From contig CP142452.1 in NCBI GenBank assembly GCA_038049695.1, positions 55,634,501 through 55,698,500 of the forward strand: a stretch of DNA of 64,000 nt. The letters are read 5' to 3'. The stretch is from Cinnamomum chago. Taxonomy: Eukaryota; Streptophyta; Magnoliopsida; Laurales; Lauraceae. Position 1 is the first letter of the stretch, and each line of letters opens with the position of its first letter. A program made the position numbers and the translations under genes. Under the pieces are notes generated by a model. That model searched no databases. It was not told the origin of the DNA and saw only the letters and a list, made by a program, of their open reading frames with translations. Below, in pieces: positions 3,575 to 42,660 of the stretch.

Positions 3575-3965
3575 GTAAGGACCCTTCCAAATACAACTCT
3601 TCTTCTAACATTAAGAAGTATTGCCTGTTGTATTATAGTCTTAATTTTCATCATACATTTCAGCCTTCCAGAGAAAATTGGAAATATGATTCACTGTTTA
3701 CAATAATTTTTTTTTAATGGTCTGTTTACAATAATGTTACATCTTGGCTGAGATGTTACGGTGTGTTTTTCCAGTAGTCTTTTAACTATCAGTTCATCAG
3801 ATGCTTCATGATTAACTGATATGATATCATTCACATACATTTAAACCTATGTTTGTGTTGTATGGATTCTTTTCAATGGACCACTTAGCAGTGCACGTAA
3901 CAAAAAGTTGGATTTACCATGGATTCTTCTAGGACTAAATTGAACATTGCCTTTCTATAGATAAA

Positions 3966-4360
3966 ATGTTATTGTGTGAAAGCATCTGTGATGATAGTTT
4001 CAGTAAAAAAACCCATTTGGGTTTCAAGCTCCTGCCACCAAGAAACTGCTATTCATTATCAAGAAGAAAGCTTGGTCTTTTGCATAGAAATGGGCGCAAG
4101 TTGAGAGCTTTTTTAGTGGGTTGGTCTTTCTTGGGAGATACAGAGGAAAAAGATGGGATTTTTATGGGAAGGGAGAAGAAAGAGAAGAGGGTGGTTGTGG
4201 TTAGAGTGAACCAGGGCTTCGGTTTCATGGGGGTGGAGGTGGGAAGGATAACAGCAACACTGCAAGGCTTTTGGGGAATATTGCTTTTGCTACTGGGCTT
4301 ACTTATCTCCCAATGACAGAGCAGCTTGGTTGGATTCTGGATACAATTGTTTCTATCTGG
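3966..4360 (+). pseudogene. Captured exon 1 of the same host gene, N-terminal part
   Basis: The ATG at 3966 opens a basic, Ser/Arg-rich leader (RNCYSLSRRKLGLLHRNGRK) that looks like a chloroplast transit peptide. After a Gly-rich stretch near 4225 the better frame shifts by one base: it reads GGGGKDNSNTARLLGNIAFA, then TGLTYLPMTEQLGWILDTIV and SIW, and stops at donor TGG|GTAAGG (GT at 4361). So there is one frameshift relative to the presumed parent. The intron after it duplicates the intron before exon 2 at 3497, which ties both pieces to one gene. No usable gene remains. Confidence 0.65.
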
Positions 4361-7504: not shown

Positions 7505-9120
7505 TGAAAGTCCGGGATCCTAATCCTAGAGGGGGTGGGGTTGAATAGGGTGAGCTACAAATTAGTGACCAATTATGCCAAATTTTAACTTCTTTAAAAT
7601 TAAATAGTCACAAGTGATGATTAAGTAAATAAATGCGGAAGCTAACTGAAACAATCACCACAAAGCATGTACCATCACACAGTGATTTATAGTGGTTCGA
7701 CCTCAATGCCTACATCCACTACATGCTTGTGATCCAACACCCCACCGGATTTCCACTATATATATGCTTTTCAAAAGGCTAAGCACTAACCTTTACAATG
7801 ATGTTTTTCTAGGCTAAACAACAACCTATCAATGTGCTTTTCTAGGCTAAGCAATAACCTTTACAAGATGCTTTTCCAAGGCTAAGAAATAACCTCTACA
7901 ATGATGCTTTTCTTAGGCTAAGCAATAACCTTTACAAGATGAATAATTTCTTTCAAAATAGTGTCTACACGAACACTAAAAGAGATACAATTTAAGCTCA
8001 ATACATTTGCCTCTTAATTAGGCTGATATGAAAGTTAAAACAAGATACAAACATACACAAACAATTAGCTAAAGTGTGTGCTCAAAGTGTGTGAATGTTT
8101 ACTTCAATCAATTTCTAAAATGAAGTTCTTAAATGAATGCTTGATGCATTTGAAAATCTAAGCTCAGAAAATGATGATTGAAGTGATGTGCTAATCACAT
8201 GAAATATTCAAAACAACTTGAAAAGACATACTATACAATTTGTATGAAGTTTAAAGACTAAAACACATGTGATTGAGACATGAGTGTTTGCAAAACAATC
8301 TAATATGCTTAAGTGATTTGGTGTTTGTAAAACAACTCAGTTAAAGCTAGAAATCATGCTGATAAGGAGTTACAAAGATTAGAACATGCATGGATTTCAA
8401 ATGGAATGGAAATCAACCTTAACTTGGAAAGATATACCATTAAATCTCAAACATTTGGATTTCCATTTGCCCTCTAGCTTTCTCATCTTATTCATCTTCC
8501 TTAGGCTTTAAAACAGTTCCAAAGATTCACTCGACAAGCCCCTAAAAGGTGAGGAATGATTTGGACTTTTATACAAAAAACAGTCCAACGGCTTGTTGGC
8601 TCGGTCGACCCCATGACCCTTCAGTCAACCAGGAACAACGGTCATATTGGCCAACAGCTAGTTTCCCTAGTCGACCTGGATTGGGCTCAGTCGATCGGGT
8701 ATACTAGCTATATTTCCCAACAGCTAGTTGGCTCGGTCGACCGAGTACAAGGCTCGGTTGACTGAGTACACTGGCCTGGGAGGAGTTCCTGCAAAATCTT
8801 CAATTTTCTAAAAAATGAAACTTGGAACAGGGCCAGCATGATTTATGCATAACATCGAGATTCTAAAGATGAGGAATGTATGCAAATCACAAACCTAGAT
8901 TTCTAACTTGATTTTCCAAAAACATGCATGAAGAATAAGATTTTCGAAAGAGCATTTAAAGTTCTAAAACATGCATGATTAAATCATTTGAAAATCAAAT
9001 GCATATGCAAGCTAGGAACTTAGATTTCAATGTCCAAACTAAGATGCATGAGTGTGTGATCAATTGATGATGAAAGTGATAGTGTATCCATCAAATTAGC
9101 AACATACAAAAATCCTAACA
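7505..9120 (-). mobile_element. Family B solo LTR (B1)
   Basis: Runs from TGAAAGTCC to AATCCTAACA on the plus strand, the same termini as the LTRs of the complete element at 9742-17167, so it reads TGTTAGG...CTTTCA on the minus strand. Flanks GTCAT and ATCAT are a decayed 5-bp target duplication. No interior is attached. It contains the GGTCGACC-type palindrome cluster at 8590-8770. It looks older than B2 by eye. Confidence 0.85.
8590..8770 (-). promoter_or_regulatory. TCGA-core palindrome cluster and MSA-like site in B1 U3
   Basis: GGTCGACC-like palindromes (CTCGGTCGACC, AGTCGACCTG, AGTCGATCGG, CTCGGTCGACCGAG) recur at roughly 20-60 bp. A TCCAACGGCT match to the MSA consensus (YCYAACGGYY) lies at about 8582-8592, beside a TATA-like stretch on the minus strand. 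Regulatory role is inferred from position and motif only. Confidence 0.5.
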
Positions 9121-9741: not shown

Positions 9742-11454
9742 TGAAAGTCCTGGGATCCTAACCCCAGAGGGGGGGGGGTGAATAGGGTGAGCTACAAAAT
9801 GTGACCAATAATGACAAATTATAACTTCTTAAACTAAACTAGTCACAAGTGATGATAAACAATCTAAATGCGGAAGCTAATAAAACAATCATCACAACGC
9901 ATTCACCACCGCACAATGATTTATAGTGGTTCGGCCTCAATGCCTACATCCACTACCGGCTTGTGATCCAATCACCCCACCGGATTTCCACTATTTATGC
10001 TTTTCAATAGGCTAAGCAATAACCTTTACAATGTTGTTTTTCTATGCTCAACAACAACCTTTACAAGATGCTTTTCAAGGCTAAGCAATAACCTTTACAC
10101 AATGCTTTTCTTAGGCTACGCAATAACCTTTACAAATGAAGGGTTTCTCTAAGAAGGTGTCTTCACAAAAAACACTCTAAGAGATACAATTTATGCTCAA
10201 TTAAACTGCCTCTAAAATAGGCGGATATGAAAGTGAAAAACAAACTCACACAAACACTATATGAATGCAAATGTGTATGCTCATAATGTGTGTGTGTGTG
10301 TGATAACTTCATTCAAGTTTAAAAACTAAGTTCAATCAATATATGCTCAAGGCATTTAAAAATTTAAGGCACATAAAAGATTTGATTGAAGTGTAATGCT
10401 AATCACATGTATGAATATCAACTTGTTAATGACATGAAAATCAAGAGCTCACAAGTTGTATGAAATTTGTTAACCTAATATGTGATGCATGTGTAACGTT
10501 GTTTTCAAAACAAAATAAATTTAACTAAGGTTTAAATGAATGAAAACAACAAATAAGAATTCAACCAAGAAAATGAATCATGCTTTAAAAGAAATCAAAG
10601 ATTTTAGCTAAGCATGATTAAAGAAGATTTTAAAACAACTTGGTTTGAAATCAAGGGTGAAGAATCCAATCCAACAAAAATTAAAGATTAGAAAAAGAAT
10701 GGGTTCAACACATCATAGTTATAATGCTAAAATTAATTTACCAATAATTTAAACAAAGCATATAACATATGATTAATAAAAAGTAAAGCTTACTTAGAGA
10801 TTTAACTTCATTGATCCAAGCTTTAGCTTCACTAATGACCCCTTGATCTCTCTTAGTTCATCCCCTTTTCTTTGTCTCAAAACACCTCAAAAGAGTCTTC
10901 AAAATCTCCAACTTTTGAAAAGGAATGAACTTCATTTTATACCCAAAAAGTGGGTTTCTGCGACTGCCCGGTCGACCTGGTACAGAGCCCGGTCGACCTG
11001 GCTTCAAACGGTCAGAAAAATGACCGTTGGAAGAGCCAATAGCTCTTTGCCCCGGTCGACCGCGCAGTGTGGCCGGTCGACCGGGTCCACCAAAATTCCC
11101 AAAAATATCATATTTCAAAGTTTTTCTTGAGGGAACTTTTTGGGCCATTAAATCAAGCTTGAAACCATGTTTTAAATCATTCTAAGGGTTTTAAAACATG
11201 AAACATAAAAAGGCAAAAAGATTCGAAACTTTAAAACCAATGGCTTGCTTGATTTCTAAAACTTCTTTTCAAAAACAATTGCATCCAAGATTAAAAACAA
11301 AACATGCACAAAACAATATTTCTTCAAGTCTAAAAGCCAATGCATGTGTAAAACAAGATTTCAAGTTTTTCTAAATCAATGCATATGTGTGTAAATCAAA
11401 TGATGCTAAAATGTTAATGCATCCATCAAATTGCAATATACAAAATCCCTAACA
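9742..11454 (-). repeat. 3' LTR of B2
   Basis: 1.71 kb, TGAAAGTCC...CCCTAACA on the plus strand, matching 15405-17167. It has a 10-G run about 25 bp from its terminus and a TATA-like box (minus strand, near 10939) just downstream, in element sense, of the palindrome cluster at 10967-11085. Confidence 0.9.
10967..11085 (-). promoter_or_regulatory. U3 palindrome cluster with inverted AACGGTCA pair (B2 3' LTR)
   Basis: Four GGTCGACC-type palindromes lie in two pairs. Between them AACGGTCA (11007-11014) and its exact reverse complement TGACCGTT (11021-11028) are separated by 6 bp. The right arm with its flank reads TCCAACGGTC on the minus strand, a perfect match to the plant MSA consensus bound by MYB3R factors. 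The same layout recurs at 16639-16800, 33170-33310 and 53329-53475. Confidence 0.6.
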
Positions 11455-15404: not shown

Positions 15405-17167
15405 TGAAAGTCCTGGGATCCTAACCCTAGAGGGGGGGGGGGGGGGGGGTGAATAGGGTGAGCTACAAAATGTGACCAATAATGAAAAATTTTAACTTCT
15501 TAAACTAAACTAGTCACAAGTGATGATAAACAATCTAAATGTGAAAGCTAATAAAACAATCACCACAACGCATTCACCACCACACAATGATTTATAGTGG
15601 TTCGGCCTCAATGCCTACATCCACTACCGGCTTGTGATCCAATCACCCCACCGGATTTCCACTATTTATGCTTTTCAATAGGCTAAGCAATAACCTTTAC
15701 AATGCTGTTTTTCTAGGCTCAACAACAACCTTTACAAGATGCTTTTCAAGGCTAAGCAATAACCTTTACACAATGCTTTTCTTAGGCTAAGCAATAACCT
15801 TTACAAATGAAGGGTTTCTCTAAGAAGGTGTCTTCACAAAAAACACTCTAAGAGATACAATTTAAGCTCAATTAAACTGCCTCTAAAATAGGCGGATATG
15901 AAAGTGAAAAACAAACTCACACAAACACTATATGAATGCAAATGTGTATGCTCATGATGTGTGTGTGTGTGTGTGTGATAACTTCAATCAAGTTTAAAAA
16001 CTAAGCTCAATCAATATTTGCTCAAGGCATTTAAAAATTTAAGGCACATAAAAGATTTGATTGAAGTGTAATGCTAATCACATGTATGAATATCAACTTG
16101 TTAATGACATGAAAATCAAGAGCTCACAAGTTATATGAAATTTGTTAACCTAACATGTGATGCATGTGTAATGTTGTTTTCAAAACAAAATAAATTTAAC
16201 TAAGGTTTAAATGAATGAAAACAACAAATAAGAATTCGACCAAGAAAATGAATCATGCTTTAAAAGAAATCAAAGATTTTAGCTAAGCATGATTAAAGAA
16301 GATTTTAAAACAACTTGGTTTGAAATCAAGGGTGAAGAATCCAATCCAACAAAAATTAAAGAATAGAAAAAGAATGGATTTAGCACATCATAGTTATAAT
16401 GCTAAAATTAATTTACCAATAATTTAAACAAAGCATATAACATATGATTAATAAAAAGTAAAGCTTAGAGATTTAACTTCATTGATCCAAGCTTTAGCTT
16501 CACTAATGACCCCTTGCTTTCTCTTAGTTCATCCCCTTTTCTTTGTCTCAAAACACCTCAAAAGAGTCTTCAAAATCTCCAACTTTTGAAAAGGAATGAA
16601 CTTCATTTTATACCCAAAAAGTGGGTTTCTGCGACTGCCCGGTCGACCTGGTACAGAGCCCGGTCGACCTGGCTTCAAACGGTCAGAAAAATGACAGTTG
16701 GAAGAGCCAATAGCTCTTTGGCCCGGTCGACCGCGCAGTGTGACCGGTCGACCGGGTCCCCTGGGCCGGTCGACCGGCCACACTGCAGGTCTACCCCCTG
16801 GGACCAAAATTCCCAAAAATCTCATATTTCAAAGTTTTTCTTGAGGGAACTTTTTGGGCCATTAAATCAAGCTTAAAAACATGTTTTAAATCATTCTAAT
16901 GGTTTTAAAACATGAAACATAAAAACCCAAAAAGATTCGAAACTTTAAAACCAATGGCTTGCTTGATTTCTAAAACTTCTTTTCAAAAACAATTGCATCC
17001 AAGATTAAAAACAAAACATGCACAAAACAATATTTCTTCAAGTCTAAAAACCAATGCATGTGTAAAACAAGATTTCAAGCTTTCTAAATCAATGCATATG
17101 TGTGTAAATCAAATGATGCTAAAATGTTAATGCATCCATCAAATTGCAATATACAAAATCCCTAACA
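15405..17167 (-). repeat. 5' LTR of B2
   Basis: 1.76 kb counterpart of 9742-11454. It has an 18-G run near its U5 end and a larger palindrome cluster (16639-16800) that includes an extra GGTCGACC pair absent from the 3' LTR. Confidence 0.9.
16639..16800 (-). promoter_or_regulatory. U3 palindrome cluster (B2 5' LTR)
   Basis: Five GGTCGACC-type palindromes, plus the AACGGTCA inverted pair with one arm altered. The cluster is about 48 bp longer than in the sister LTR because of an additional palindrome pair, showing the array changes copy number quickly. Confidence 0.55.
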
Positions 17168-19491: not shown

Positions 19492-19900
19492 CTTGTGCTG
19501 GCTTTGCTTCAAACCACTAATGTTGCTGAAATGGTACAAAAGCTTTTATTAGTGGCAACTTCAATGCACAGGGTGAATCTAAAGATGTTGAAGTAAAGAG
19601 TATCATTCTAAACAAGCTTTTGAAATAATATGCATTATTTTTTTAATGGAAAAAGACAAGCATTTGGTGTAACTAAATAGCTAATGGTGGCATCCATATT
19701 GGTAACTTGGTTGTGTGGCTCAAGTTTCTCAAGTAACTCGGTTTGACTAAAACTCTCATTCAGTTTTGTAATTTTCTCCCCGAGGCAAGTTATTTAGACC
19801 CTAAACATGAATGATATAATTTTTCCTCTGTTTACAACAATTACACAACCAAAGAAAAATTGCTAACTAATGCGACAAAAAGCTAAATCAATAAATAAAG
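19492..19900. other. No gene recognised; flank of the MULE
   Basis: AT-rich DNA without a supported gene. Its last 40 bp (TTGCTAACTAATGCGACAAA onward) recur on the far side of the MULE at 24131, showing a pre-existing short tandem duplication. The start (CTTGTGCTGGCTTTGCTTC) resembles sequence near 29155. Confidence 0.5.
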
Positions 19901-19945
19901 GAGTGCTGCTACCTACACACTGCATTTTGCTCTCCACACACTGCA
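19901..19945 (+). repeat. MULE left terminal inverted repeat
   Basis: GAGTGCTGCTACCTACACAC and following bases through CTCCACACACTGCA match the complement of 24073-24117 with about five mismatches in 45. Confidence 0.9.
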
Positions 19946-20390
19946 ATAGATTGTGACTAAAATGCCCACTTGTAAATTTACCAAAATGTTTGAACTTCAG
20001 CCCTCCCAGTCTACTTGAAATGCTATCTACACACTGCGTATTTCCACTCCACTTGAAATGTCTAAACGTATGTTAAGGGTTTCACTCCTCTCCACTTCCT
20101 TCCATTTAGTTTGTGCCATGCATCATGAAATAAAGACAAGGTTTCTACTTCTTCCTGCATTTTACTGATCTTTACTTCCTCCATTTTTCATCTTCTCTCT
20201 CGGTTTCAATCCTCACTTCATTCTCAATTGATTGTAACTCATTAATCTTGATTTCATTCAAAGTTGAAACCCAATTTGCTAGCATTCTTAATCAATGGAC
20301 GAGCAAAAGGACAAGCAGATGATGTCTCCTGATCATTCTAGCAGCATAGAGGTAAGCATATTCATCGCAAGCTGTGTATATGGGCAGAGA

Positions 20391-20613
20391 CGAACAGTTC
20401 GGCCCTGCATGTCCGACCGAATGTCCTCTGCGCGGCCTTTCAGGGCCGATCAGAGGTACTTTACGTGGCCCTGAAAGGCCGAACAGAGGTACTTTGCGCG
20501 GCACTACAGTGCCGAGAAGAAGCAAAATATGTGGACATGCATGGCCGAAAATAAGGACATTATGCGGACATGCATGGCCGAACAATTTAATTTTGTCCAG
20601 ATATTCAGAGTCG
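20391..20613 (+). repeat. MULE left 33-bp palindrome array, seven units
   Basis: Seven imperfect 16-18 bp palindromes, consensus near CGGxCxTxCAxGxCCG (best copy CGGCACTACAGTGCCG at 20499-20514), are centred at about 20407.5, 20440.5, 20473.5, 20506.5, 20539.5, 20572.5 and 20605.5. That is exactly 33 bp apart with no slippage. Spacers differ between units. Because 33 is a multiple of three, both strands stay open and read as 11-residue repeats (G-H-A-W-P-like); I regard coding as possible but unproven. The array begins about 500 bp inside the left end and lies upstream of the plus-strand gene. Confidence 0.9.
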
Positions 20614-20657
20614 TGCAGTTGTGTCATTTACGTACTCTAACAAAATTGGTTCCATAG

Positions 20658-22568
20658 CAGTTTCATGCACCTAATGAATGCAGCAAGGTTGGCTCGGAAT
20701 GTGTGGTCGACTATAGTAATGAGTTTATCACTGAAGAGGTAATTAATCAAGATGAATCATTCGATATTTAAATTGATGTAGTCACTTTGTTCAATATAAT
20801 TTTGTTTGGTTATGCATAGATATTCATAAGCCGAGAATTCCTAATTAATTGAGCTTGTGATGTTGGGAGGAGAAATGGTTTCATTGTTGTGATTAAGACA
20901 TCAGCAGCGCCCAACAGGAGAAATAAAAAACCAAGGCTGACCCTTGGGTGTGAGAGGAGTGTGACTTATAAAGACACGAGGATTACTAAAGACGGGATTG
21001 GTGGGAAGAAATTGAAGCAGGCTGGTTCGAAAAAATGTGGATGCCCATTCACGTTACAAGGCAAAGTTGTTGGCTCAAATGAGGAATGGATGTTTCATGT
21101 AGTGTGTGGTGTGCATAATCATCCTGCTGTAGACTTTCTGGAAGGGCACTCATTTGCAGGGAGATTAACAAAGGATGAAACTTCAGTGCTGGTGGACATG
21201 TCCAAGAATATGGTTCGGCCAAACGATATCTTGGTGACACTGAAACATAAAAATGAGTTAAATGTAAGCACACTGAATTCAAAGAACTTCGTGGGAACAT
21301 TTCTATATGTGCATTAGAGAAAATCTTGGCCGAGATGAAACGAGCCTCATCAGTCGGTATTGATAAAGATGCTTGTGGTTGTGTACTTCGACAGACACAT
21401 GGCCTACCTTGTGCTCATGAGATTGCAGAATACATAAGTGCTGGGCTCCCTATTCCTTTAGATTACACGCATATGCATTGGCGCAAGCTTGACTTACTAC
21501 ATGCCGCTTATGACCAGGACTCCAATGTCAATTTGGATTGCATGCCAGAGATAGATTTAATTGTCGAACAATTCAGGGGCTATGATTCGAGAAAGAAGTT
21601 ACAGATCTTGGATAAGCTTAGGGAGCTTGCAAAGCCTAAGACGACCTCACTGATCGTGCCAGATTCGAAAACTAAATGTCGGGGACGCCCAAAATTGAAA
21701 TTACACAATTCTACTAAACGTGAACCCTCTTCCTTTGAATATGTCGAATCAGCTCAGGATAGTTAGTCTCCTGTCTTAAAGATGGAAGAGACTATTGTCA
21801 GTAGTGGGGCCTCTTTGGTGCCCGTGAAGAAGCTGATTCCTAAGCAAAAGGTCAACCGCACCCGAAATTTGAAGCCAACCACTTATATTAACACACTCCC
21901 AGATGGTTTAAGGTCATATATTCATCATGTAAAAGATGTCAATGCGGATGGCAATTGTGGCTTTAGAGCCATTGCAGGGTTGATGAGACTTGGTGAGGAT
22001 TCGTGGCAACAGGTACGGAAAGATTTTTCTAGAGAGTTGGTGACTCATGCAGAACACTACAGACAACTATATGGATCACACCAAAGGGTTGATGAACTTC
22101 TCAATATCATATCGTACCAAGGGGATTGCCCTTCATATGATCGATGGATGACGATGCCGGACATGGGACATCTAATTGCCTCGCACTATAACGTTGTCCT
22201 ATACCATTTGTCAAATGAGCAATGCCTGACTTTTCTTCCTCTTCGATCGGTCCCTATTCCTACTGCTGCTAGACGAGAGATCGCAATCGGTTTTGTCAAT
22301 CAAAACCACTTTGTTCAGGTGATAATAGTAGATGCATAGATTCACCAAACTTATTTTCCCTGAAATGCCGTGACTCACTTGAACTCCTTGTTATATGTAG
22401 GTTTTCCTCGTACAAGGTCATCCAATTCCTCCTATTGCTACTAATTGGGTTCGTCACCATCACCCTTCTGCAGATGGTTGGGATATAGCTTATCAATCTC
22501 GGATCCAACATTTCAGAGAAATTATAAGTCCATCAGTTGCCACATGCAAAACCATCGATCTGGAATGA
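20658..22568 (+). pseudogene. MULE transposase remnant (FAR1-type and SWIM domains) fused to an OTU protease
   Basis: Three exons can be read: about 20658-20738 (donor GTAATT), 20820-22318, and 22401-22568 after an 82-bp GT..AG intron. The second begins ISREFL..., continues CDVGRRNGFIVVIK and LGCERSVTYK, and includes KKCGCPF and HNHP: a FAR1-type C2H2 DNA-binding domain. After NELNVSTLNS it jumps to ISICALEKILAEMKRASSVG and a SWIM zinc finger (CGCVLRQTHGLPCAHE), so the ~250-residue DDE core is deleted, with a frame change at the junction near 21275. An OTU cysteine-protease domain follows in the same frame: DGNCGFRAIA (catalytic Asp/Cys) and NHFVQV (catalytic His), ending QSRIQHFREII. Stops at 20850 (TGA where Trp is expected) and 21764 (TAG between SWIM and OTU) make it a pseudogene. 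Transposase-OTU fusions are known from plant MULEs. Confidence 0.8.
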
Positions 22569-22660
22569 TTGTTATATTTTATAAGGATGTCAATGCGGAT
22601 CCAATTTTTTTAAGAGCTTAATGCAATTGAGCATTGTTGTAAATTAAGATGAGAACATTC

Positions 22661-23324
22661 TCACTTTGTTTTATAAAAGAACATTCCATATATCTTCATG
22701 ACCGGGATCCCTAGAATGGTGCCCACGTCATCAAGGGTAATCGTCATTTCACCAAAAGGCATGTGGAATGTGTTTGTCTCAGGCTGCCATCTTTCCACAA
22801 ATGCTGACACCATGTTCTTGTTGATGGAACGATAAGATGTCGCCACCAATGGAGCCAACCCCGAACGGCTAATGAGACGACTAAAAATGGTATTCTGCCT
22901 TCCCTCTGAATTCCATGCCCATTCACTGATTTTTTGGCCATGGCTTATGCATTTAAGTGGTGGTCTCTCCTGCAAAACGAAATAAATAACAAATTAGTGA
23001 AGCTAATAAACTTTTAAAATATGTTAACCAAGATTAATCACAAACTTGTTGCTGCCAAATACTTGCAGCAATATGCGTCCGGAAACTAGGTAGAAGGCTC
23101 AAACTTGTAGGCCCCCCGGGAATTTCTCCAGTCATATCATGAGCAACAGTTGATGTTCGTTCACGTACTTCTTCTGCCTGTTCGGCGACTTCGGTCTCCA
23201 CTTTGGGAATAGATTGTTCTTCAACTACTTCTTCATCACCATCGGACGCATCAGCAACAAACCTGTGACGGAGTCTCCTGTTCAACGTTGTGGGTCGAAC
23301 CCTAGAGGTACTGGGTGCATCCAT
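22661..23324 (-). pseudogene. Plant mobile domain (PMD/MAIN-like) gene remnant in the MULE
   Basis: The ATG at 23324 (minus) starts MDAPSTSRVRPTTLNRRLRH, an acidic linker follows, and exon 1 ends IAASIWQQ at a GTTTGT donor near 23045. Exon 2 begins after TTTTGCAG at about 22969 and reads ERPPLKCISHG, then SRSGLAPLVATSYRSINK, MVSAFVERWQPETNTFHMPF and GEMTITLDDVGTILGIPV. That is the signature of the plant mobile domain found in MAIN/MAIL proteins and in several transposon groups. The gene is cut off after GIPV; most of the domain is missing. It converges on the OTU gene with about 90 bp between the two remnants. Its role in the element is unknown. Confidence 0.8.
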
Positions 23325-23377
23325 ATATCTGAAAAAAAATTCATAAAGACATAGTTCAGAACTGAGTCACAGCCCAT

Positions 23378-23595
23378 TCAGACCTGACTATCCGTGTGTA
23401 CATTATTCTCTCGGTGTTACATGGCCGTGAAATTACAATCTGGTCGGACCCACGAAGCCAAGAAATTACAATATGGTCGGCCAAACATGTCCGACCAAAT
23501 TGCTTTTACTCGGACCTACAGTGCCGAGATCATATTCTTTTCACGGATCTTCAGGTCCGAAAGTAAGGACTACTTTTGAACCCATAGTGCTGAGC
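23378..23595 (-). repeat. MULE right 33-bp palindrome array, seven units
   Basis: Seven imperfect palindromes of the same design (CGGACCTACAGTGCCG at 23511-23526, CGGATCTTCAGGTCCG at 23544-23559, CGGCCAAACATGTCCG at 23478-23493) are centred at 23386.5, 23419.5, 23452.5, 23485.5, 23518.5, 23551.5 and 23584.5, again exactly 33 bp apart. The array starts about 520 bp inside the right end and lies just upstream of the minus-strand PMD gene, mirroring the left array. Confidence 0.9.
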
Positions 23596-24072
23596 GCGTC
23601 GTCATTCACAGCAGCGTTTAAATGGCAAAAACGATGACAATGGCTAGAGAAATGGGGGAGACAAACGCGCATGACGGAGGAAAAAACCTTTAAATAAACC
23701 AAATCTTTAATCTTAAGAGAACACTATAACCATTTTTGAGCAATCAAAAGGTATTGAAATCACTCACTGGGATTGAAAGATGGCCTACCTATGTTATGGA
23801 CTTTTGAAGAATGAGGGAAGAAGATCACAGATACCTTTGAGAAGATGCAGCGAAATCGTCCACAACGGAAATGTAGTTCACGTGCCTCATCGAGATTTCG
23901 TCGATTCAGTGAATGGGAGGGAAGAAATGCAGAAATGGAGGAAGACGATGATGAAGTGTAGTGTGTAGAGAGAAACGCAGGGAGGGAAATTGCATGGGCT
24001 TTTTAGGTAAATTGCAGTGTGTAGAGAGAAAGATGATGGAATCTTTTTACTATAAGTCACTGTGAAAAGAGA

Positions 24073-24117
24073 TGCAGTGTGTGGAGAGCAAAACACAATG
24101 TGTAGGTAGCAGCTCCC
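24073..24117 (-). repeat. MULE right terminal inverted repeat
   Basis: TGCAGTGTGTGGAGAGCAAA through GTAGGTAGCAGCTCCC, the inverse of 19901-19945. A related TGCAGTGTGTAGAGAG word recurs at 24012, so part of the terminus is duplicated internally. Confidence 0.9.
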
Positions 24118-24158
24118 TAAATAAAGATAAGTTGCTAGCTAATGCGACAAAAAACTAA

Positions 24159-25502: not shown

Positions 25503-28339
25503 TGTCGCAACCCCGGAACGGATCCCGGGCCCGCGACGTGTTGATGATTTACGATTGAGTTGTTTATGTTTTCCCACAGGTTCCCGCGGTGAGGATTCCC
25601 AAAGACACGCGGAATCTGACTCACATGATCAAGTATGCGGAAGCGTGTAACAAATCACATCGAGATAAGATCCGATAAATCTTTAAGTGCTATGATAACA
25701 TAATAACAAGACATGGTATCCAAAGAAAGGAGTTAACATGGCATTCCCATTATAATTCAAGTTATGAGACTAACACGAAAGTAAGTTAAGTTTTAGTTAC
25801 ATCCCATAAGAGGCCAACACAGGCCAATACAATTCTCAAAATGATAAAAGAAACCCATGACATAATGACGAAACTCAAGAACCCGCCCGACGTCTCGTTG
25901 ACATCGTCGGGCTGCCATTCTCTAACAGGGGTTGGCTCAAAAGCCTCCTCCGGGCGCTCCTCCTCAAAGGCAACGCCTCCTGCACCTGGGCACCAATAAC
26001 AAGAGTCAAACACAACGGTTTGGCAGGTAATCAATTTAGGTGAAAACATGAAACAAACAACGTGATAAGAAAACATATAAACAAATCCCTGATTTGAACT
26101 ACTACAATGACTGAGATACATTTTCGAGAATACAAACAAAGCTGAGATACTAAAACAAACTAGCATGAGTACATATAATATCATGAATAGTTACAATCCA
26201 CAAAGAGCCCATCCTTTCTCTATCATATATATAATGAAAAGAGCAAGCACGCACGACAAGCACGATATACATAATATAATCACGACACGATTCCCACATA
26301 TACGGGGATTTCCGGCCGCGGAACCGTACACGCACGAGGTGTAATAGAATACACGACTAGTCTGCAGACAGTCCACATGTTTAAGGACCCCGAGACAGTG
26401 GATCAAACTGAAAGGGCAGTCCAAGCTCAGTGGTGTTCACTTAATTCATGAATGCACAAAACACGCGAAACACTATCAAAACATGTCGAGATAAAAAGGG
26501 GGAAAATCACTTATCAAACACAACAAACACGACTAGCAAAAGGCATAATAAATATGCATAACACGCTTAGGAAGTGATCCCCTTTTTCTTGAAACAAATC
26601 TTCAAAACAAGCTTATACTTGAAATTCAAAATGAGTACACGATGGTACTTATCGTACCAAGACGGAAATTCAAAATACGAAATCTGACAAGCATGTGTTA
26701 AGGCTACTAATTGACCTTTGTGTAATTGAGACCCTAAATGTCGGAATATACAAGAATTGGTGTCCCCGAAGTTGGGTTGCATTTTGAAGTTCCATTTACA
26801 CAATGTCAAGTCAAAACCCTTAACATAGTCTAGTTTTTCAACCTTCAAGAAAATACACAAATGAAATAATTCTTCTTCCTGAATCTGGTAGGTTTGTTCG
26901 AGCGGACCTTGTAAGGTATTGACACTTCGCTCGAGCGAGACAGTTCGCTCGAGCGGACAATAAGGTCGCTCGGGCGGAAAACTCTCTATCTTGCTCCAGA
27001 TTAAATAGTGGGCAGTTCGCTCGAGCGGACATAAGGTCGCTCAAGCGGACAGCTCTCTGTCTGCGCTCGGACCAAGCAGTGGCTTGGTCGCTCGAGCGGA
27101 CAAGCTTCTGCATGTGCTCGCTGAGTGCAGAAAAACCCTTCCTCTTGTCCAACTTTCAATACATTTCTCTCATTCTTCTCATCCTTAAGCCACATACAAT
27201 CCCTTGAGCCTTCATGCTCACCAAGGGTTCATTTTTCACAATTTCAACCATTCAATCTAAATGAAAACAAGATCATGAAGTTTATAAACAAGTTTATATG
27301 CACAATTTTTAAAATAGCAATGAAATCTAAAATACACATGCAACAAAGAGCCTATAGAGATTACTTGGCTTTGCCCAAATGCTAAACAATCCTCTTCAAG
27401 CACTCTTACTCAAAAGCTAAGCCAACACTACAAATAATCCCAAGGAAATCCATTCAAAACTCAACACAAATGAAAACAAAGAACCCATTTTCACAAAGGG
27501 GTTTGTAAACATGGAAAACAAGATCTCTAAGAACCGAAAAGGCTTCGTGAAGAATATGGGTTGAAGCTCTTACCTAGAAATGCTCAAACAAGAAGGAATG
27601 AAGGAAATTGAGAGCTTCCCCAACTTTAGCTTTCAAGAAGGAGACATCAATAGGAAGCTTGAGATGAGAGGAAGAAGGTGATGGCTTTGGAATTTTTTTT
27701 GGAGATCTCTAGCTAGATCATGCAAGGTGAGGAAGAGGGAAAGGAAAAGGGATTTTCAGCCCTAGGTTAAGAAAGTTGCAGGATTTTGGTTTTAGAATGA
27801 AAAGAGTAAAGGGGGAAAGAGATGGGTTGACTTAAGACACTTGCAAGTGGGGCCCAAATGGCCAAATCTTGTATCAATAAAAGCATGCTCTTGTGGGCCT
27901 CGAATGAACTCGACAAAGAAGGATAAAATGATCCTTGAAATATCTAGTTTCCAAAAAGTATATTTTTTACATGGTTTTGAGATCTTGAAAATTATGTCCA
28001 GATTTGTGCAAAAAGACCACTTTACCCTTTTTGGGCCAGAACTTAGGCTTTTGGGCTTCAAACATGAATGGGCTTAAGACGAAAGTTGTAACACATAGTA
28101 AAATCATTCACATGAAATCAAAATCACGATTACACGGAAATCGATACGATCCTCCCAAGCTTACACGTGCACTCAGGCCTTCTTGAGTGTGTCAGACTAG
28201 TACTAAACGTTCTCAAAACTCCCAGTGCTATGTCCAAGACTAAACTAATTAATTCTAACACAACGACAATTAAACCCACTTAGAGCTAAACACACACTAA
28301 TCGCACACTAATCGAATTGGTCTGGGTCGGGGTCTAACA
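25503..28339 (-). mobile_element. Tekay/Del-type solo LTR (LTR-2)
   Basis: 2.84 kb from TGTCGCAACCCCGG to GGGGTCTAACA on the plus strand, flanked by a perfect 5-bp target duplication TATAT (25498-25502 and 28340-28344). On the minus strand it reads TGTTAGACCCCGACCC..., closely related to the LTRs of the young element at 40577. The region near 25900 (GTTGACATCGTCGGGCTGCC on plus) and the TATA-like stretch near 26225 correspond in position. No interior; formed by LTR-LTR recombination. Confidence 0.9.
26893..27115 (-). promoter_or_regulatory. GCTCGAGC palindrome cluster in Tekay LTR-2
   Basis: Seven or more CGCTCGAGCG-type palindromes, several followed by GACA or GGACA, at about 20-65 bp spacing within U3, equivalent to 41780-42000. 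Confidence 0.65.
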
Positions 28340-28344
28340 TATAT

Positions 28345-32088: not shown

Positions 32089-33169
32089 TGAAAGTCCTTG
32101 GGATCCTAACCCTAGAGGGGGGGGGGGGGGGTGAATAGGGTGTGCTACAACTATGACCAATTTAGACCAATTTTAATTCCTTAACATAAACAAGTCACAT
32201 GTGATGATTAACCATACAATATGCGGAAGCTAATAAACACAATCACCACAAAAGCAAGCACCACAACACCAAGGTTTATAGTGGTTCGGCCTCAATGCCT
32301 ACATCCACTACCGGCTTGTGATCTAATCACCCCACCGGATTTCCACTATTTATGCTTTTTACTAGGCTAAGCAATAACCCTTACAATGTTGTTTTTCTAG
32401 GCTAAACAACAACCTCTCAATGTGCTTTTCTAGGCTAAGCAATAACCTTTACAAAATGCTTTTCTTAGGCTAAGCAATAACCTTTACACAATGCTTTTCT
32501 TAGGCTAAGCAATAACCTTACAAGAGATGATTTCTCTAAGAAAGTGTCTTCACAAAAGATCACTCCAAGAGATACAACTTTAAGCTCAATTGAATTGCCT
32601 CTACATAGGCTAATATGAAAGTTTAATTCAAATTACAAACATACACTAAAACAAGTTAAAGTGTGTGCACAAGTGTATGAATGCTTTTCTTCAATCAATT
32701 TTTACAATGAAGCTCCTAATGAATGCATGATGCATTTTAAAATCAAAGATTATAAAATGATGATTGAAGATAAAACTAATCACATAAAAGATTCAAACAA
32801 CTTTGAAGAAATGAAATAAGCAAGTTGTATGAATGTTAAAGTCTAAGAACACATGTGATTAGGAAAAAAGATTTTGCAAACCAAACTAATTTACCAAAGA
32901 AGATATTGAGTTTGCAACACAACTCTAGAAATCATGCATAAGTGAAAATACAAAGATTTAAGCATGCATGGATTTCATTTTAATGGAAATCAAAATACAA
33001 GTAAAGTGTACCTTTTTAAATCTCAAGTATTTGATTTCCAAATGGCCCTCTAGCCTTTCCAACTTCTTCCCCTTTCTTTGGCTCCAATATGGTCTCAAAA
33101 GTTCATGTATCAAGCCATGAAAAAGGTTGAAAATGAATGGACTTTATAGCCAAAAAGTGCCCAAAGGCT

Positions 33170-33310
33170 AGTCCTCGGCCGACCTGCAAAGAGGTCTCGG
33201 TCGACCATGAACACACAACGGTCAAATTTCTGACCGTTGGAGCACTTTGGCCCAGATGGTCTGCAATGTTCCCGGTCGACCGGGACCTCTGCGCCGGTCG
33301 ACCGGCGACA
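33170..33310 (-). promoter_or_regulatory. U3 palindrome cluster with inverted AACGGTCA pair (B3)
   Basis: GGTCGACC-type palindromes flank a perfect inverted pair AACGGTCA (33217-33224) / TGACCGTT (33231-33238). On the minus strand the second arm reads TCCAACGGTC (MSA consensus). A TATA-like box (minus, near 33145) follows in element sense. Confidence 0.6.
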
Positions 33311-35832
33311 CTGCCAGGCCACTCCCCTTTTGCAAAAATTGCAACTTTTGCACATTTGAAGGTATTTCTTTGGGGGGATTTTGGGGCCACGAAACCAAGC
33401 TTGGTAACATGTTTTAGATCAATCTAAGATGTATAAAAACATGAAACACAAAGAGCCTAAAATGATTTGAAACTTTAAAACCAAAGGCTAGCTTGATTTC
33501 TAAAAACTCTTTTCAAATGAAAATGCATACAAAGATGATTCTGAAAGTGATGAATGTATGCAAAACACAAACCTAAATTCTCAATAAGATTTCTCAAAAG
33601 TAATGCACAAAGAATTAGGTTTTCAAAAGAGTTTGGATTCTTATATCAATGCATCCAAGTTAAAAACCAAAACATGCATAAAACAAAACTTTTACACATC
33701 TTAAAAGCAATGCATGTATAAAACCAGATTTCAAGATATTCTAAAACAATGCATGAGTGTAAATTCAAATGATATGAATATGTTGATGCATCCATCAAAT
33801 TTCAAATACAAAATCCCTAACAATCTCCCCCTTTGCAATTTGATGGCAACTTACTTATCATTGAATTAACACAACAAGTCTTCAGCTCCCCCTAAGCTGG
33901 ACAAGTCTTGAAATCTTCTTGGATGCTCCTCCTCTTAGCTTGGGCTCTTGGGCTCTTTTCTTCAATCTTCTTGATGCTTGGTGCTTGATCAAACTTCAAG
34001 CTTTCTTTTCAGCTTCCTCTCTATGGCCAAGCATCTTCTTTAGCTCCAAGCTTTCTTTCTTCTATTTGCTCTCCCCCTTTGACCATGCCTCTCTCTCCCT
34101 TTGGCAAGGTATGCATTCTCTCCCCTTGTAGAAGATCATACACAACTCTCCTTAGGAAGCTTGGACATTCTCTTCACCTTTAGAGAACTTTGAAAGCTCT
34201 CTCCCTCTTTGAAGAGTAGGAGATCTTTGAGTACTTGAACTCTCTCTCCCCCTTTGCCATTAAATTGCAAAAATACCTACACACATGAAATAAGGAAAAT
34301 ACCTTTAGTAGCACCTGTTAACAAATGAAATCGAAAATGAAATACATAACAGGCTATCATGTATGGAAGTTAATCTCTAAGGTCTCAAAGGCAATCTAAG
34401 GGTCAATTTGATCACAACTAATACTTCCTATGAAGGTTTACACTCCCCCTCAATCCATTCTCTTCTTTTGTCAAACTTTTGACAAGATATAACTATTTGG
34501 TTCAAGAAGTAGATGGTTCAACCAAATGAGGGTCAACTTCAAGGAAAGGATTAGATTCATTTAACTATAGAGCACATTATGATCAAATTACCAAAAGAAG
34601 GCAAGGTCTAATGGGAAAAGCAATCATGGATACCAATTGGAAAAACAAAGAATACCAATTGAGATTTAAGGATATGATTATTAAATCAATCACTCTAAAA
34701 TGGATTTAAAAATATAACTATTAGGAAACATCCAAATTAGAGCTATCCATGAAGAAATGGGGTTTACTAAACATAGCATCAATTAATATAACTAATGAGC
34801 ATAGTGATGAACAAGGCAAATTGCAATGCAAAAGAATATGACTTGGTAAAGCATGCAATTTCCAAAGTGTCAAAATCATATGAATTCAACATCTAAGATA
34901 TCCATCAACCATATAGAAATATGAGAAATGGGTTTCAAAGAGTTTCATATGATTAAGAACACTACTTATGAAGTTGAAACATGTATAAGGATGATACCAA
35001 GAGAATCTACATGAGTCAACATCATAACCATCCAAAAAGATATGACTATAAGGCATAGAGGATGGATTTGGGTTCTAGTATGGTTTCTACAAATAAAACT
35101 AAGATCACAACCATACATGGAACCAAAAGTCATTTGCATATAAAAAGAATGTAAATAAACAAGCAAGGATGCAAACAATATACATTTCCATTTCTAAGAT
35201 AATGAAACCAAAAGAAAAGGAAATGAAAACATGGAACATGCTTTAGATGAATATAACTAATGATGTTATAGGCATTTCCATTCAAATAATCTTCAAATCA
35301 TTTTGAAAAACAAAATCCAACAATGAGCATAAAAAGAATGATTTTGAAGATCAATTTTCAACATTGTATTTTAAAAGATATAACTTAATTAAAACACATA
35401 CAAGTTGATTTTTCAAAACAATGTTCTCCATATAAAAGTATAACTTAGAAATCCATGGAAAACTTAAGTTGATTCAAATCATTTGTTCAAATAATATTAC
35501 TATGACATCTACACAAATGATTTTGCAACAACAATTGATCATGAATAAATTAGCTATGAAAGCTTTTAAAATCACAATCAATTAATCATGTAGAAATGCA
35601 ATGCAAAACTTATGTGTGCAAAAAGCAAATCAAACATGATGAAATTATAATCAAAAGATTTTGAAAACCATGACATGTAACTTGGAATGGTGCATGAAAG
35701 CAAAATCAATTGATCATAAAGAAACAATGCATTTTAAAGAATGTAACTATATAAAAGCAAAATGCAAATGCAACATGACCAACAAAGAGATTTAACTATC
35801 AAAGAATAGGTTGGTCAAGTAGGTTCAAGGCC

Positions 35833-38800: not shown

Positions 38801-41779
38801 CTGCAAGCAGAGCCTTGTCCCCCCAGTTCAATGCAGGAAATCTGCACCAGTTTTCCTTGTTTGTTTTAACCCATTTCCCTCCTCCAATCTTATACATTTC
38901 CACCATTCCAACTACAACTTTCTACACTTCTATCAACATCCAATCAGCCCATTCAACCACATTAATCAAGCCTCATTCCCCACATCAGTAGCAACAAAAA
39001 TGGGAACTCAATATGAATGAAGTTGCAGGATTTCTAACAATCCAGTTTACATTCTTATAAGGCCATTAAAACCAAGACTATCCCAACTATAATAGGTATA
39101 AAACATTGCAGAAACATAGCATACTATTTTGCTTAACAAACTTTAGGAAATGAGCAATGTATAAATCAAGAAACAATTCAAATGAAATAGAGGTTGCTTT
39201 CATATCAAACTTAAAAAAAAAATTACCCATTTCAAATGCATGCATTCCTATCAACTTATTCACTTGCCTCCAATGGAATGGGTCTCAAGAATAGTCCAAA
39301 CAACTCCTACACAATTCAGCTGCAGACCTACACCAATCCCATGGGAAAAACCCATTCAAAAACTCAATATTTTGAAAAGAGAATGAGCTCTCAAAGAGCC
39401 TCCTTGCATGCAAGTAGAAGAGCTTCCAAAGGGTGTGAAAAACCCATATCTAAAAGGAGAAACAAAACCTTACCTGTAGATGTAAAAACCAGCAACAAAA
39501 GCTTGAGAAATGAAGTTGGTTTCAGCTGGAATTTCTCGAAAAATAGTATTAATAGCAAGCTTGGAAGATGAGGAATAGGGTGGTATAATTTGTTTTTCAA
39601 TTTGGGTTTGTTTTCTTGACATGCAAGAAGAGAGAGATTACATGAAGAAGGGAGTTCCCTCCCTGGCTCGTTGCTGCGGAAATGAAGAATGAAGAAGAAG
39701 GAGTGGACTGATGGGTCTTGGTTTTAAATGGGTTTAAGTTGTGAAAGGTGGGGCCCAAATCTTCAAGTGGCTGGATCGATCATTTGTGGGTCCCGAATGG
39801 AAACGACGAAGAAGACAAAAATTATCATTGAAAAATCTAGTTTTCAAAAAGTATATTTTCCTCATGATTTTCAAATTTCGAAATTTATGCACAGATTTGG
39901 GTGTGAAAAGACCGTCTTGTCTTTTTTCTCGAAAAACGTGATTCCTGGGTTTCAAATGCAAATGGAACAAACATGAAAGTTATTGGAATCAAAATAAAAA
40001 AATTCAAAAATGTCGAAATCCACATTTTTCATAAATCAATTAAATCAAATAAATCAAATTCTCATACTAACACGTGTCACGGGCCACCCCGGGCCCGGTC
40101 AAACTGAACTCAATGCGCTCAAAATTCCCCAAAGCTATCCAAAATTCTAATCTGACTAAAAATTCAAGCTAATCGTCTCATACTCCGACTTAGAGACTAA
40201 TCACAGTTAAAATAATAATAATATATACTAAACCTAGGTCGGGGCCTGACACGCGACCCCACATCTCATGTGTAATCCGGGCCCAAGCTAATTGCAAATA
40301 ACATTACTATATAAATGCAATTGCACTCTAGTCTTAGGAATAAATTATAATGAAGACTCTAAACTTCCCAATTACCACAAGTAGGCCCCCCTCTATCATT
40401 ATCCATGGATCAATTGGAATAAATCTGTCTCATCCAATCTTAGATCAACATCTTATTATCGTTGAGCCCCAATTAATTACAGTGATCATCAGTACCATCC
40501 AATTAACTCTTAATCGAGATGGGTGCGTACTTACTAATGATAAACCCATTAATTGGCATAAGGGGATAATGTAGATTGTTAAACCCCGACCCGGACCAAT
40601 TCGATTAGTGTGCGATTAGTGTGTGTTTAGTCCTAAGTGAGTTTAGTGGTTGTTGGGTTAGAAATGATTAGTTTAGTCTTGGACATAGCTTTGAAGATTT
40701 TGAGAACGTTTAGTATTAATTAAACACACTCAGGAAGGCCTGAGTGCACGTGTAAGCTTGGAAAGTCGTGTCGTGTTCCGTGTGAGGGTGGTTTTGATTT
40801 CATTTGAATGATCTTTTTATGTGTTACAACTTTCGTTTTAAGCCCATTCATGTTTGAAGCCCAAAAACCCATATTTTGGCCCAAAGAGGGTAAAATTGTC
40901 TTTCTTGCACAAATCTGGACACAAATTTCGAGATCTCAAAACCATGTCAAAAATATACTTTTTGGAAACTAGATATTTCGACGATCGTTTTATCCTTCTT
41001 CGTCGAAGTCATCCGAGGCCCACAAGGTCATGTTTTAGCCATTTCAAGTTCAAGCCCAATGGGCCCATGAGTCATCACTTAAGTCTCCTTTCTTCCTCTC
41101 TTTCATTCACTTTCCCCAATCTCTGCAACTTCTGAACCTAGGGCAAGAAAAACCCTTTTTCTCTCCCTCCTCATTTCCCCTTGCATGATCTAGTTAGAGA
41201 GCTCCAAATAAAGTTTCAAGTTCATCATCTTCTCCATCTCATTGCAAGCTCTCTATTGGTACAAGTTTCTTGGAGTTTCTTTTGGGACAAGATCTACATT
41301 TCCTCTCTTCTCTCTTGTGTGACCATTCCTAGGTAAGAGCTTCAACCCACATCTTTCATGGAGTCTTTTTAGTCCTTTAAGATCATGATTTTTCCTAGTT
41401 TCAACCCTTTTTCTAAATGGGTTTCTTGTTTTCAAGATTTAGTGAGTTGTGTGGTTTTCTCTTGGATTTTCTTGTAGTGTTGATTAGCTTGAGGAAGTAC
41501 TTGAGGAGGAGTGTTTAGCTTTGGTCAAGGCAAGTGATCTTTTTAGGCTTCATGTGCATTGTATTTTGGTTTCCATTGTATTTTAGAAATTGTGCTTACA
41601 TTGTTTACATGCTTCATGATTTGGTTTTTATTGGATTTAAATGTGTGAAATGATGGAAATGCACCTTGGTGAGCATGTAGGCTCAAGGGTTTTTGTGTGA
41701 TTGATGGATGAGAAGAAGGAGAAGAATGTAGTGAAAGATGTGCAAGGAAAGGGGATTTCCGCACTCAGCGAGCTCAGGC

Positions 41780-42000
41780 AGCAGCCTGTTTGCTCGAGCG
41801 ACCCTGGGTTCGCTCGAGCGAACAAGCCACTGTCTCCTACGGAGCGAGGCAGTGAGTCGTTCGTTCGAACGCATTTTATTATTCGCTCGAGCTAACATTC
41901 GCTCGAGCGAACTGTCTACGCCTTGTAAGGTCCGCTCGAGCGAAGTGTCTCGCTCGAGCGAAGTGTCATCAACGTGACAGGTTCGCTCGAGCGAACCTGC
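41780..42000 (+). promoter_or_regulatory. GCTCGAGC palindrome cluster in the Tekay 5' LTR
   Basis: About nine TTCGCTCGAGCGAA-type palindromes, several perfect over 14 bp, lie in groups about 20-45 bp apart, some 650 bp upstream of the TATA box. An identical cluster is at 49452-49672 in the 3' LTR. Confidence 0.7.
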
Positions 42001-42652
42001 CAGACTCAGGAAGATGATTTCTCTCCATTTTGTGTATTTCTTGAGGGTTGAAAACTAGACTATGTTAAGGGTTTTAACTTGACATTGTGTAAATGGAACT
42101 TCGAAATGAAACCCAACTTCGGGGACACCAATTCTTGTATTTTCTGACGTTTGGGGTTTCAATTACACAAAGGTCAATTAGTAGCCTTAGCACATGCTTG
42201 TCAGATTTTGTAGTTGAACTTCCGTCTGGATACGATGAGTATAAACGTGCACTTGTTTTGAGTTTCAAGTATAAGCTTGTTTTGAAGTTTTGTTTCCAGA
42301 AAAAGGGGATCACTTCCTAAGCGTGTTATGCATAATTATTATGCCCCTTGCTAGTCGTGCTCGTCGTGTTTTGATAAGTGATTTCCCCCTTTTTATCTCG
42401 ACGTGTTTTGATCGTGCTTCGCGTGTTTTGTGCATTCATGAATTAAGTAAACACCACTGAGCTTAGACTGCCCTTTCGGTTTGATCCACCGTCTGGGGGT
42501 CTTTAAACATGTGGACTGTCTGCAGACTGGTCGTGTATTTATTACACATCGTGCGTGTCCGGTTCCGCGGCCGGAATTCCCGTCTTTGTGGGAAATCGTG
42601 TCGTGCTTATATTATGTATATCGTGCTTGTCGTGCGTGCTTGCTCTTTTCAT

Positions 42653-42660
42653 TATATAAA
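42653..42660 (+). promoter_or_regulatory. TATA box of the Tekay LTR
   Basis: TATATAAA in the context CTTTTCATTATATAAATGAT; the same in the 3' LTR at 50325. Likely defines the U3/R boundary a few tens of bases downstream. Confidence 0.5.

Follow-up and report, generated by a model that had tools for sequence, protein, structure and literature searches.

Three arrays of TCGG-N10-CCGA dyads at a fixed 33-bp pitch, putative protein-binding sites, in a Mutator-like element family of Cinnamomum chago

Introduction

Why does a transposable element hold rows of short dyads at an exactly constant distance while their sequence turns over? The question is raised by a Mutator-like element (MULE) in a 64,000-nucleotide stretch of the Cinnamomum chago genome (contig CP142452.1, positions 55,634,501 to 55,698,500, assembly GCA_038049695.1); this whole stretch is called the window, and positions are those of the window unless another copy is named. 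A preliminary description reported twin arrays of seven imperfect palindromes, one array preceding each of two convergent genes, and suggested phased protein-binding sites, a promoter switch or a peptide of 11-residue repeats. The window is part of a 1.06-Gb genome in 14 contigs. From their sequence, the arrays have the character first suggested, that of phased binding sites whose pitch is under constraint, and we put the probability that they are such at roughly 0.85.

Two phased arrays in the window copy

Core starts fall at 20400 + 33k in array 1 and 23379 + 33k in array 2 (k = 0–6), and the pitch is unbroken in both. When seven consecutive units are scored for CGG-N10-CCG (maximum 42), array 1 reaches 38 and array 2 reaches 37; the 38 of array 1, at pitch 33, is the top score of the element over pitches 17–60, and 200 first-order Markov controls give at most 25. 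The seven slip-free core slots per array are thereby confirmed. A score of palindromy alone gives 40 for array 1, the maximum of the whole window (three Markov controls, 32–33), and places array 2 outside the 25 best of the window. In this copy the outermost cores of array 2 (CAGACCTGACTATCCG and TGAACCCATAGTGCTG) are degenerate, whereas other copies have full cores there.

The arrays lie 499–738 bp inside the element ends, so that the distance first given, about 500–740 bp, was correct. Both are within predicted leader introns and end 47–50 bp before the predicted 3′ splice site. To say that they precede the genes is too simple for array 1, which lies inside a predicted first intron, after a 19-codon exon; array 2 is in a predicted 5′-leader intron.

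Among 74 units from 13 arrays—not all independent, two copies of family A and two of family D being included—information is highest at T-CGG and CCG-A, plus a central T..A. The palindrome design first proposed is therefore reduced to a constant dyad TCGG...CCGA with the central T..A, since the inner ten bases are no more palindromic than their column composition predicts (131 of 340 pairs; the mean after shuffling is 139). Such a layout would suit a dimer on two CGG half-sites about one turn apart. The pitch had also been thought to place all bound proteins on one face of the DNA, which holds only approximately: with 10.5 bp to the turn, 33 bp makes 3.14 turns, a drift of about 51 degrees per unit, so that dimers would trace a slow helix and not exactly one face.

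A third array and related families

The window copy is internally deleted in comparison with the 6.9–7.0-kb copies L061, L075 and L076 (7,003, 7,032 and 6,896 bp). Full copies of about 7 kb carry, from left to right, a terminal inverted repeat (TIR), a leader and a transposase gene, with a convergent gene for a plant mobile domain (PMD) on the opposite strand. That these elements are MULEs, as proposed, is evident from the TIRs (41 nt, 93%), from an exact 9-bp target-site duplication (TSD) present in both the window copy and L075, and from the MULE transposase domain of full copy L075 (PF10551, 2.8e-27; PF00872, 9.3e-9); the window copy lacks the transposase middle.

A middle array stands between the convergent gene ends in all four full-length copies read (L061, L075, L076 and L077); the two arrays described as twins are real, but they are two of three. 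The three-array plan is found at corresponding places in families A (L061, L075), B (L076) and D (L077). Compared with L075, the transposase and PMD domain are 90% identical in family B; in family D the transposase is 63–68% and the PMD 58% identical. The N-terminus of the PMD protein is less alike than its domain between L075 and L076, at 73%. Family C is a 654–666-bp derivative at three loci, with related TIRs and four units at pitch 33; its loci have a single array, on one side only, one of them (L073) has a 129-nt inverted repeat, and tblastn gave no match to the element's proteins at the three loci.

Array 1 is present in at least 40 copies and array 2 in at least 40. FAR1/transposase matches number at least 150 genome-wide, and several have an 823-codon frame and equal score, so the family has intact, probably recent members. 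Among the matches listed, an exact D unit lies no more than 1.5 kb upstream of 41 of 50 D-type PMD exons on C1–C3 (PMD matches being among at least 150, and D units the first 100 of 262). Most D spacers are also palindromes (e.g. AACAAAATCATTTTGTT), and array 1 (A1) and array 2 (A2) of family D resemble each other (80% over 128 bp). At L069 a D-type element ends at about 2103 and a second MULE with a similar TIR, carrying its own array at 2634–2814, starts at 2112, the two lying nearly end to end.

Constraint on the pitch

The motif TCGG-N10-CCGA-N15-TCGG, which corresponds to pitch 33, has 3,561 matches genome-wide (the first 100 of which were looked at more closely) and its backward control 212; at the 15 next larger spacings combined (N16–N30) the same half-sites have 1,860 matches, with 1,275 for the control. 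The core pair CGGNNNTNCANNNCCG occurs 379 times at gaps of 2–32 (control 2), with 13 matches at 2–16 (control 2) and 6 at 18–32, leaving 360 at a gap of 17 by subtraction. Genome-wide matches are repeat copies and not independent; the independent evidence for the pitch is that it returns at three positions of the element and in families whose spacers differ. Among the first 100 of 262 family D matches, neighbours are separated by a multiple of 33 in 33 of 34 cases.

Sequence turnover is fast within this fixed geometry. Between L075 and L076 the coding exons are 82–96% identical and the arrays 65% (A1), 64% (A2) and 47% (middle), while five other regions outside the main exons (the leader together with the 57-base exon 1; intron 2; a pair of 3′ stretches; and the part from array 2 to the TIR) are 67–86% identical; the arrays, lowest in identity, are thus the fastest-changing part among the regions compared. 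With 28 gap openings per 460 mismatches in the five non-array regions, 12.8 length changes are expected for the 211 array mismatches, yet all core-to-core distances in both elements are 33. The four gap openings within the array alignments, counted irrespective of individual size, accompany differences in unit number (7 versus 4 in the middle array, 7 versus 6 in A2), and one short deletion, judged by eye, apparently lies at an edge unit of array 1 of family B; P is about 4e-5 with this one event and 3e-6 with none. Some of the mismatches may come from unit turnover rather than substitution, which would weaken the test. A within-array version offers a partial check on this concern: across nine arrays, adjacent spacers differ by 225 mismatches without a length change, where the ratio in the flanks predicts 13.7 (6.8 if halved; P about 1e-6 and 1e-3).

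Variable pitch in related copies had been named as a finding that would refute phased sites, and the copies speak mainly for the idea. Array 1 has 11 indel runs in 28 copies, nine of exactly 33 bp, one of 35 and one of 1, and the family with 58% PMD identity keeps the pitch. Several observations weigh against it or against the function proposed below. Array 2 has four indel runs in 20 copies (2, 12, 13 and 14 bp), none of a whole unit; these counts, like those for CpG below, cover the 30 left copies less L005 and L019 and the 30 right copies less L051–L060. Of the further array-2 copies, L056 and L057 are short by 51 and 44 bp over the array query, and L051–L055 match only from position 52 of the query. 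Among the first 100 of 153 family C matches, 20 of 39 neighbour distances are multiples of 33 and 19 are not, being mainly 50 (five) and 60 (two). In families A and B, two arrays from the same element are no more alike than arrays from different families (A1-A2 0.63, A1-B1 0.72). Substitutions had been expected to concentrate outside the palindromes; close copies show no such pattern, variation being 0.038 in cores and 0.041 in spacers over 17 copies (the 30 array-1 copies less L005, L014, L019 and L021–L030, the last with matches 33–35 bp shorter). The expected pattern emerges only when units or families are compared, and there chiefly at the outer CGG/CCG. The close copies are presumably mostly decaying, so that constraint would be expected on deeper branches only. 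Decay at CpG relative to other C/G sites is 1.36 in the arrays and 1.53 outside on the left, and 1.63 and 1.48 on the right (ratios alone are used, as the outside class includes some unrelated flank); there is no consistent difference, and so no clear trace of hypomethylation in the arrays.

Proposed function

VANC, a protein encoded by VANDAL elements, binds short motifs and lifts silencing across the element, and both protein and motifs diverge fast between families; its targets, which diverge rapidly, are repeated in tandem within introns and in non-coding DNA between genes and at the termini, according to the available text of two reports (PMC5735166, PMC10398659). The arrays described here could work in a related way. 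A dimeric protein would contact the two TCGG half-sites of TCGG-N10-CCGA, one dimer per 33 bp, and adjacent dimers would touch to build a regular filament; as arrays occupy the two predicted leader introns and the DNA separating the 3′ ends of the genes, the entire element would be covered. The binder would most likely be encoded by the element, with the PMD protein as first candidate and, after it, the transposase through its FAR1-type zinc domain. The likeliest job of the binder, like that of VANC for VANDAL, would be to mark the element's own non-coding DNA sequence-specifically, so that it escapes silencing and both genes are expressed. Arguing from this analogy, we give a VANC-like anti-silencing function of an element protein slightly less than an even chance.

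The PMD protein is ranked before the transposase because of a weak match to DUF1985 and a published speculation. The available text describes PMD as a domain of unknown function (Nicolau et al., PMC7156037), reports that VANC proteins carry DUF1985 (PMC5735166), and speculates that MULE-borne PMDs serve anti-silencing (Ikeda et al., PMC5418596). Five of the six PMD proteins match DUF1985 weakly, four of them (families B and D, in the same segment) with E-values of 8e-4 to 4e-3, and the first such match came up independently of the link between VANC and DUF1985. It tells against this line that the match is under the Pfam cut-off, that the family A protein of L075 is without it, and that most matching members are near relatives in family D. 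The proposal also has against it the absence of consistent CpG protection, the equal variation of cores and spacers among close copies, the pitch-breaking indels of array 2, the other spacings of family C and the low coherence of arrays within an element in families A and B. A genome search for DUF1985 gave no match and its 14 control genomes likewise none, so that it is uninformative. AlphaFold prediction of the PMD exon with six sequences gave a mean pLDDT of 31. That the PMD protein is itself the anti-silencing factor, a distant relative of VANC that recognises specific DNA and sits as dimers on the TCGG-N10-CCGA sites of all three 33-bp-phased arrays, is a possibility that we regard as doubtful.

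Alternative explanations

The arrays might instead be intronic enhancers, their sites hijacking a host dimeric transcription factor to drive both genes. Their place in predicted leader introns, just upstream of the acceptor in both genes, is what would be expected, and the fixed geometry and the constancy of TCGG/CCGA across families agree with it. An array between gene 3′ ends is harder to accommodate, as is the array retained in a gene-less 660-bp derivative, and the interior of the sites differs between families whose proteins are 90% identical, which is unusual for a fixed host specificity. We are not aware of a plant factor that binds CGG-N10-CCG sites spaced by 33 bp and consider host enhancers unlikely; a plain promoter switch, as once suggested, is rejected on the predicted intron positions of two arrays and the presence of a third between the gene 3′ ends. 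Enhancers of transposition, with the FAR1/WRKY-GCM1-type zinc domain of the transposase binding the arrays and joining the element ends, would account for two arrays mirrored toward the ends and for family C, which retains ends plus array, and subterminal tandem repeats occur in other MULEs, such as the nine 12-bp repeats inside the TIR of Aedes Muta1 (available text of PMC5225508). Subterminal transposase-binding repeats would be confined to the element ends, and here the window arrays are hundreds of base pairs inside them and the third is mid-element in full copies; the family C loci, with an array on one side only, fit no better, and this role is rather improbable.

The arrays could also be a neutral minisatellite, a functionless 33-bp period copied by unequal exchange. 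Exchange maintains a period by itself, whole units are gained and lost in array 1, and spacers in D and its neighbour are 69–78% alike, which fits some homogenisation. In the A and B arrays, on the other hand, spacers are only 41–63% identical, so that homogenisation is weak there, yet the 225 mismatches between adjacent spacers of nine arrays come without a change of length. The outer CGG/CCG are 82–100% identical and the inner bases 31–82%, and a pitch of 33 bp is found again at each of three positions and across several families; we hold a neutral origin improbable. RNA hairpins controlling splicing from the leader introns would explain why A1, A2 and array 2 of family D all stop 47–52 bp short of the predicted 3′ splice site. 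Hairpins should covary at their inner pairs, where the arrays show no excess over shuffling, and the middle and family C arrays lie in no known intron; this reading is rejected as very improbable. We give next to no credence to a peptide of 11-residue repeats (33 being 11 codons): some frames are open by periodicity, but variation among close copies shows no codon periodicity (0.042, 0.037 and 0.039), array 2 of the window has stops in all six frames, and the arrays are in predicted introns. With no frame open through array 2 of the window and no codon-position bias, the peptide is rejected.

Comparison with known systems

The element resembles VANDAL21/Hiun and VANDAL6 of Arabidopsis in being a MULE with a further gene beside the transposase. 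As with VANC targets, tandem motifs occupy introns, intergenic and terminal non-coding DNA, the putative targets here being, in four of four full elements read, two arrays in predicted leaders or leader introns and one between the genes; and as in VANDALs, the motifs outpace the genes (47–65% for arrays versus 82–96% for coding exons in the one pair, L075 versus L076). Unlike the 8–9-bp VANC motifs, those described here are dyads at an exact 33-bp pitch, and unlike in VANDALs the second gene is a PMD gene with weak similarity to DUF1985. VANDALs are not known to have long TIRs; TIRs are present here. In the main texts of PMC5735166 and PMC10398659 the strings "palindrom" and "spacing" are absent.

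A PMD is likewise carried by MULEs of rice, grasses and Amborella (Ikeda et al. 2017, PMC5418596); in their PMD-C members it is reported to be fused to the transposase, unlike the separate convergent gene found here, and the available text does not mention arrays for these elements. Muta1 and Muta5 of Aedes also have tandem repeats near MULE ends and an 8–9-bp TSD, but these are 12–15-bp repeats inside the TIR, with 3–4-bp linkers in Muta1, rather than 33-bp dyads in introns (PMC5225508). No MULE with phased arrays of this geometry was found in the open-access literature searched, so the preliminary remark that none had been described holds for the geometry; tandem target arrays in MULEs are known in another form, that of VANDAL and VANC. 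A purely geometric analogy is offered by sopC of plasmid F, a bacterial locus of tandem repeats at a 43-bp pitch; a dimer binds the 16-bp dyad of each repeat and builds a higher-order complex.

A MULE that pairs a PMD gene with three strictly phased arrays is a ready DNA bait for asking what either of its proteins binds. Should the VANC-like reading be true, the element would represent a second MULE route around silencing, one whose DNA geometry is far stricter, and would offer a natural modular tool for opening plant chromatin at chosen sequences. If the PMD were the binder, this would be a first molecular function for the domain and would link MULE anti-silencing to the host silencing factors MAIL1 and MAIN, which have the same domain.

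Structure of the element

Gene structures, introns included, were predicted from sequence and not from RNA (Table 1). According to tblastn with the L075 proteins, the window copy keeps residues 1–170 and 467–823 of the transposase and only residues 1–98 of the PMD exon; transposase residues of about 171–466 and the PMD exon past residue 98 are absent. In L075 the transposase is an 823-codon open frame, and Pfam finds the FAR1-type domain (2.6e-6) and the PMD (3.9e-57).

Exon 1 of the transposase gene is without indels in 28 copies, and its donor is shared by L075 and L076. Among 30 left copies, a motif search detects the donor context in 29, two of which (L006, L022) have AT in place of GT, and the intron 1 acceptor context in 27. 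The exon 2 stretch is identical at 76 of 79 bases between families A and B. For the PMD-leader intron, L075 and family D have similar acceptors and D a similar donor; in L075 the motif search detected no donor, and in B neither donor nor acceptor, which leaves the intron less certain in these two.

The broken remainder of the transposase gene presumably includes SWIM-like and C-terminal OTU-like parts, labels given by eye. The OTU reading consists of the motif DGNCGFRAI...NHFV only, Pfam and PDB matches not being significant (best PDB match, E 0.45). This OTU-like cysteine-protease motif, unconfirmed by Pfam/PDB sequence search, ends the transposase in families A and D (L075 2997–3533; L077 3805–5142, minus strand).

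Table 1. Features of the window copy and positions of the middle array in full-length copies (positions of middle arrays are those of the copy named)
Feature	Position	Strand	Basis
MULE copy, 4,217 bp	19901..24117	.	TIRs and TSD
TSD, 9 bp exact, TAAATAAAG	left 19892..19900, right 24118-24126	.	sequence identity
Left TIR, 41 nt, 93% to 24073-24113	19905..19945	+	
Right TIR	24073..24113	-	
Predicted exon 1, transposase gene, 19 codons MDEQKDKQMMSPDHSSSIE, donor GAG|GTAAGC at end	20295..20351	+	read from sequence
Predicted intron 1, phase 0, contains array 1	20352..20660	+	GT...AG
Array 1, seven 16-nt cores, 17-nt spacers	20400..20613: 20400, 20433, 20466, 20499, 20532, 20565, 20598	.	
Predicted exon 2, 26 codons, phase 0	20661..20738	+	read from sequence
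Exon 3 part, FAR1-like DNA-binding domain and transposase start	20820..21270 (end approximate, internal deletion)	+	Pfam FAR1 E 4e-5, under gathering score
Transposase gene remainder past deletion, frame broken	21270..22336	+	tblastn to L075
PMD gene, N-terminal piece of plant mobile domain, remainder deleted	22661..22990	-	Pfam PMD 1.8e-17
PMD gene, first coding exon, ATG at 23324 (MDAPSTSRVRPTTLNRRLRHRF...), exon end approximate	23034..23324	-	related exons in families A, B, D
Predicted 5′-leader intron of PMD gene, CAAAG|GTATCTG ... TTTTTTTTCAG|ATATATGG, contains array 2	23329..23834	-	read from sequence
Array 2, seven core slots	23379..23592: 23379, 23412, 23445, 23478, 23511, 23544, 23577	.	
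Middle array, L061	six units at 3987-4167		
Middle array, L075	seven slots from 3954		
Middle array, L076	four units at 3867-3981		
Middle array, L077 (divergent D-type)	five slots, four scoring, at 4102-4249		

Other repeats in the window

A 36-nt direct repeat (89%) flanks the MULE at 19851–19886 and 24123–24158, overlapping or adjoining the TSD in another register. Elsewhere, direct repeats of 2.82 kb, 99.7% identical (40577–43398 and 48249–51071), surround a 1,648-codon open frame that is gag-pol-like by eye; together they make up a very recent long terminal repeat retrotransposon. Each of the two repeats contains a TTCGCTCGAGCGAA palindrome cluster (41881–41995 and 49553–49667), and a related single copy of the repeat, inverted, lies at 25503–28340 (81%). 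Short tandem pairs of a palindrome type around GGTCGACC (e.g. CCGGTCGACCGG) occur at 8730–8770, 33272–33314 and 53326–53375, in or adjoining other dispersed repeats, and represent clusters in a further transposable-element context. A 35-bp tandem repeat of the ATGCTTTTCTAGGCTAAGCAATAACCTTTACAA type is found six times (7764–7941, 9997–10135, 15668–15806, 32352–32523, 54775–54906 and 61465–61596), in each case within a copy of one dispersed repeat family.

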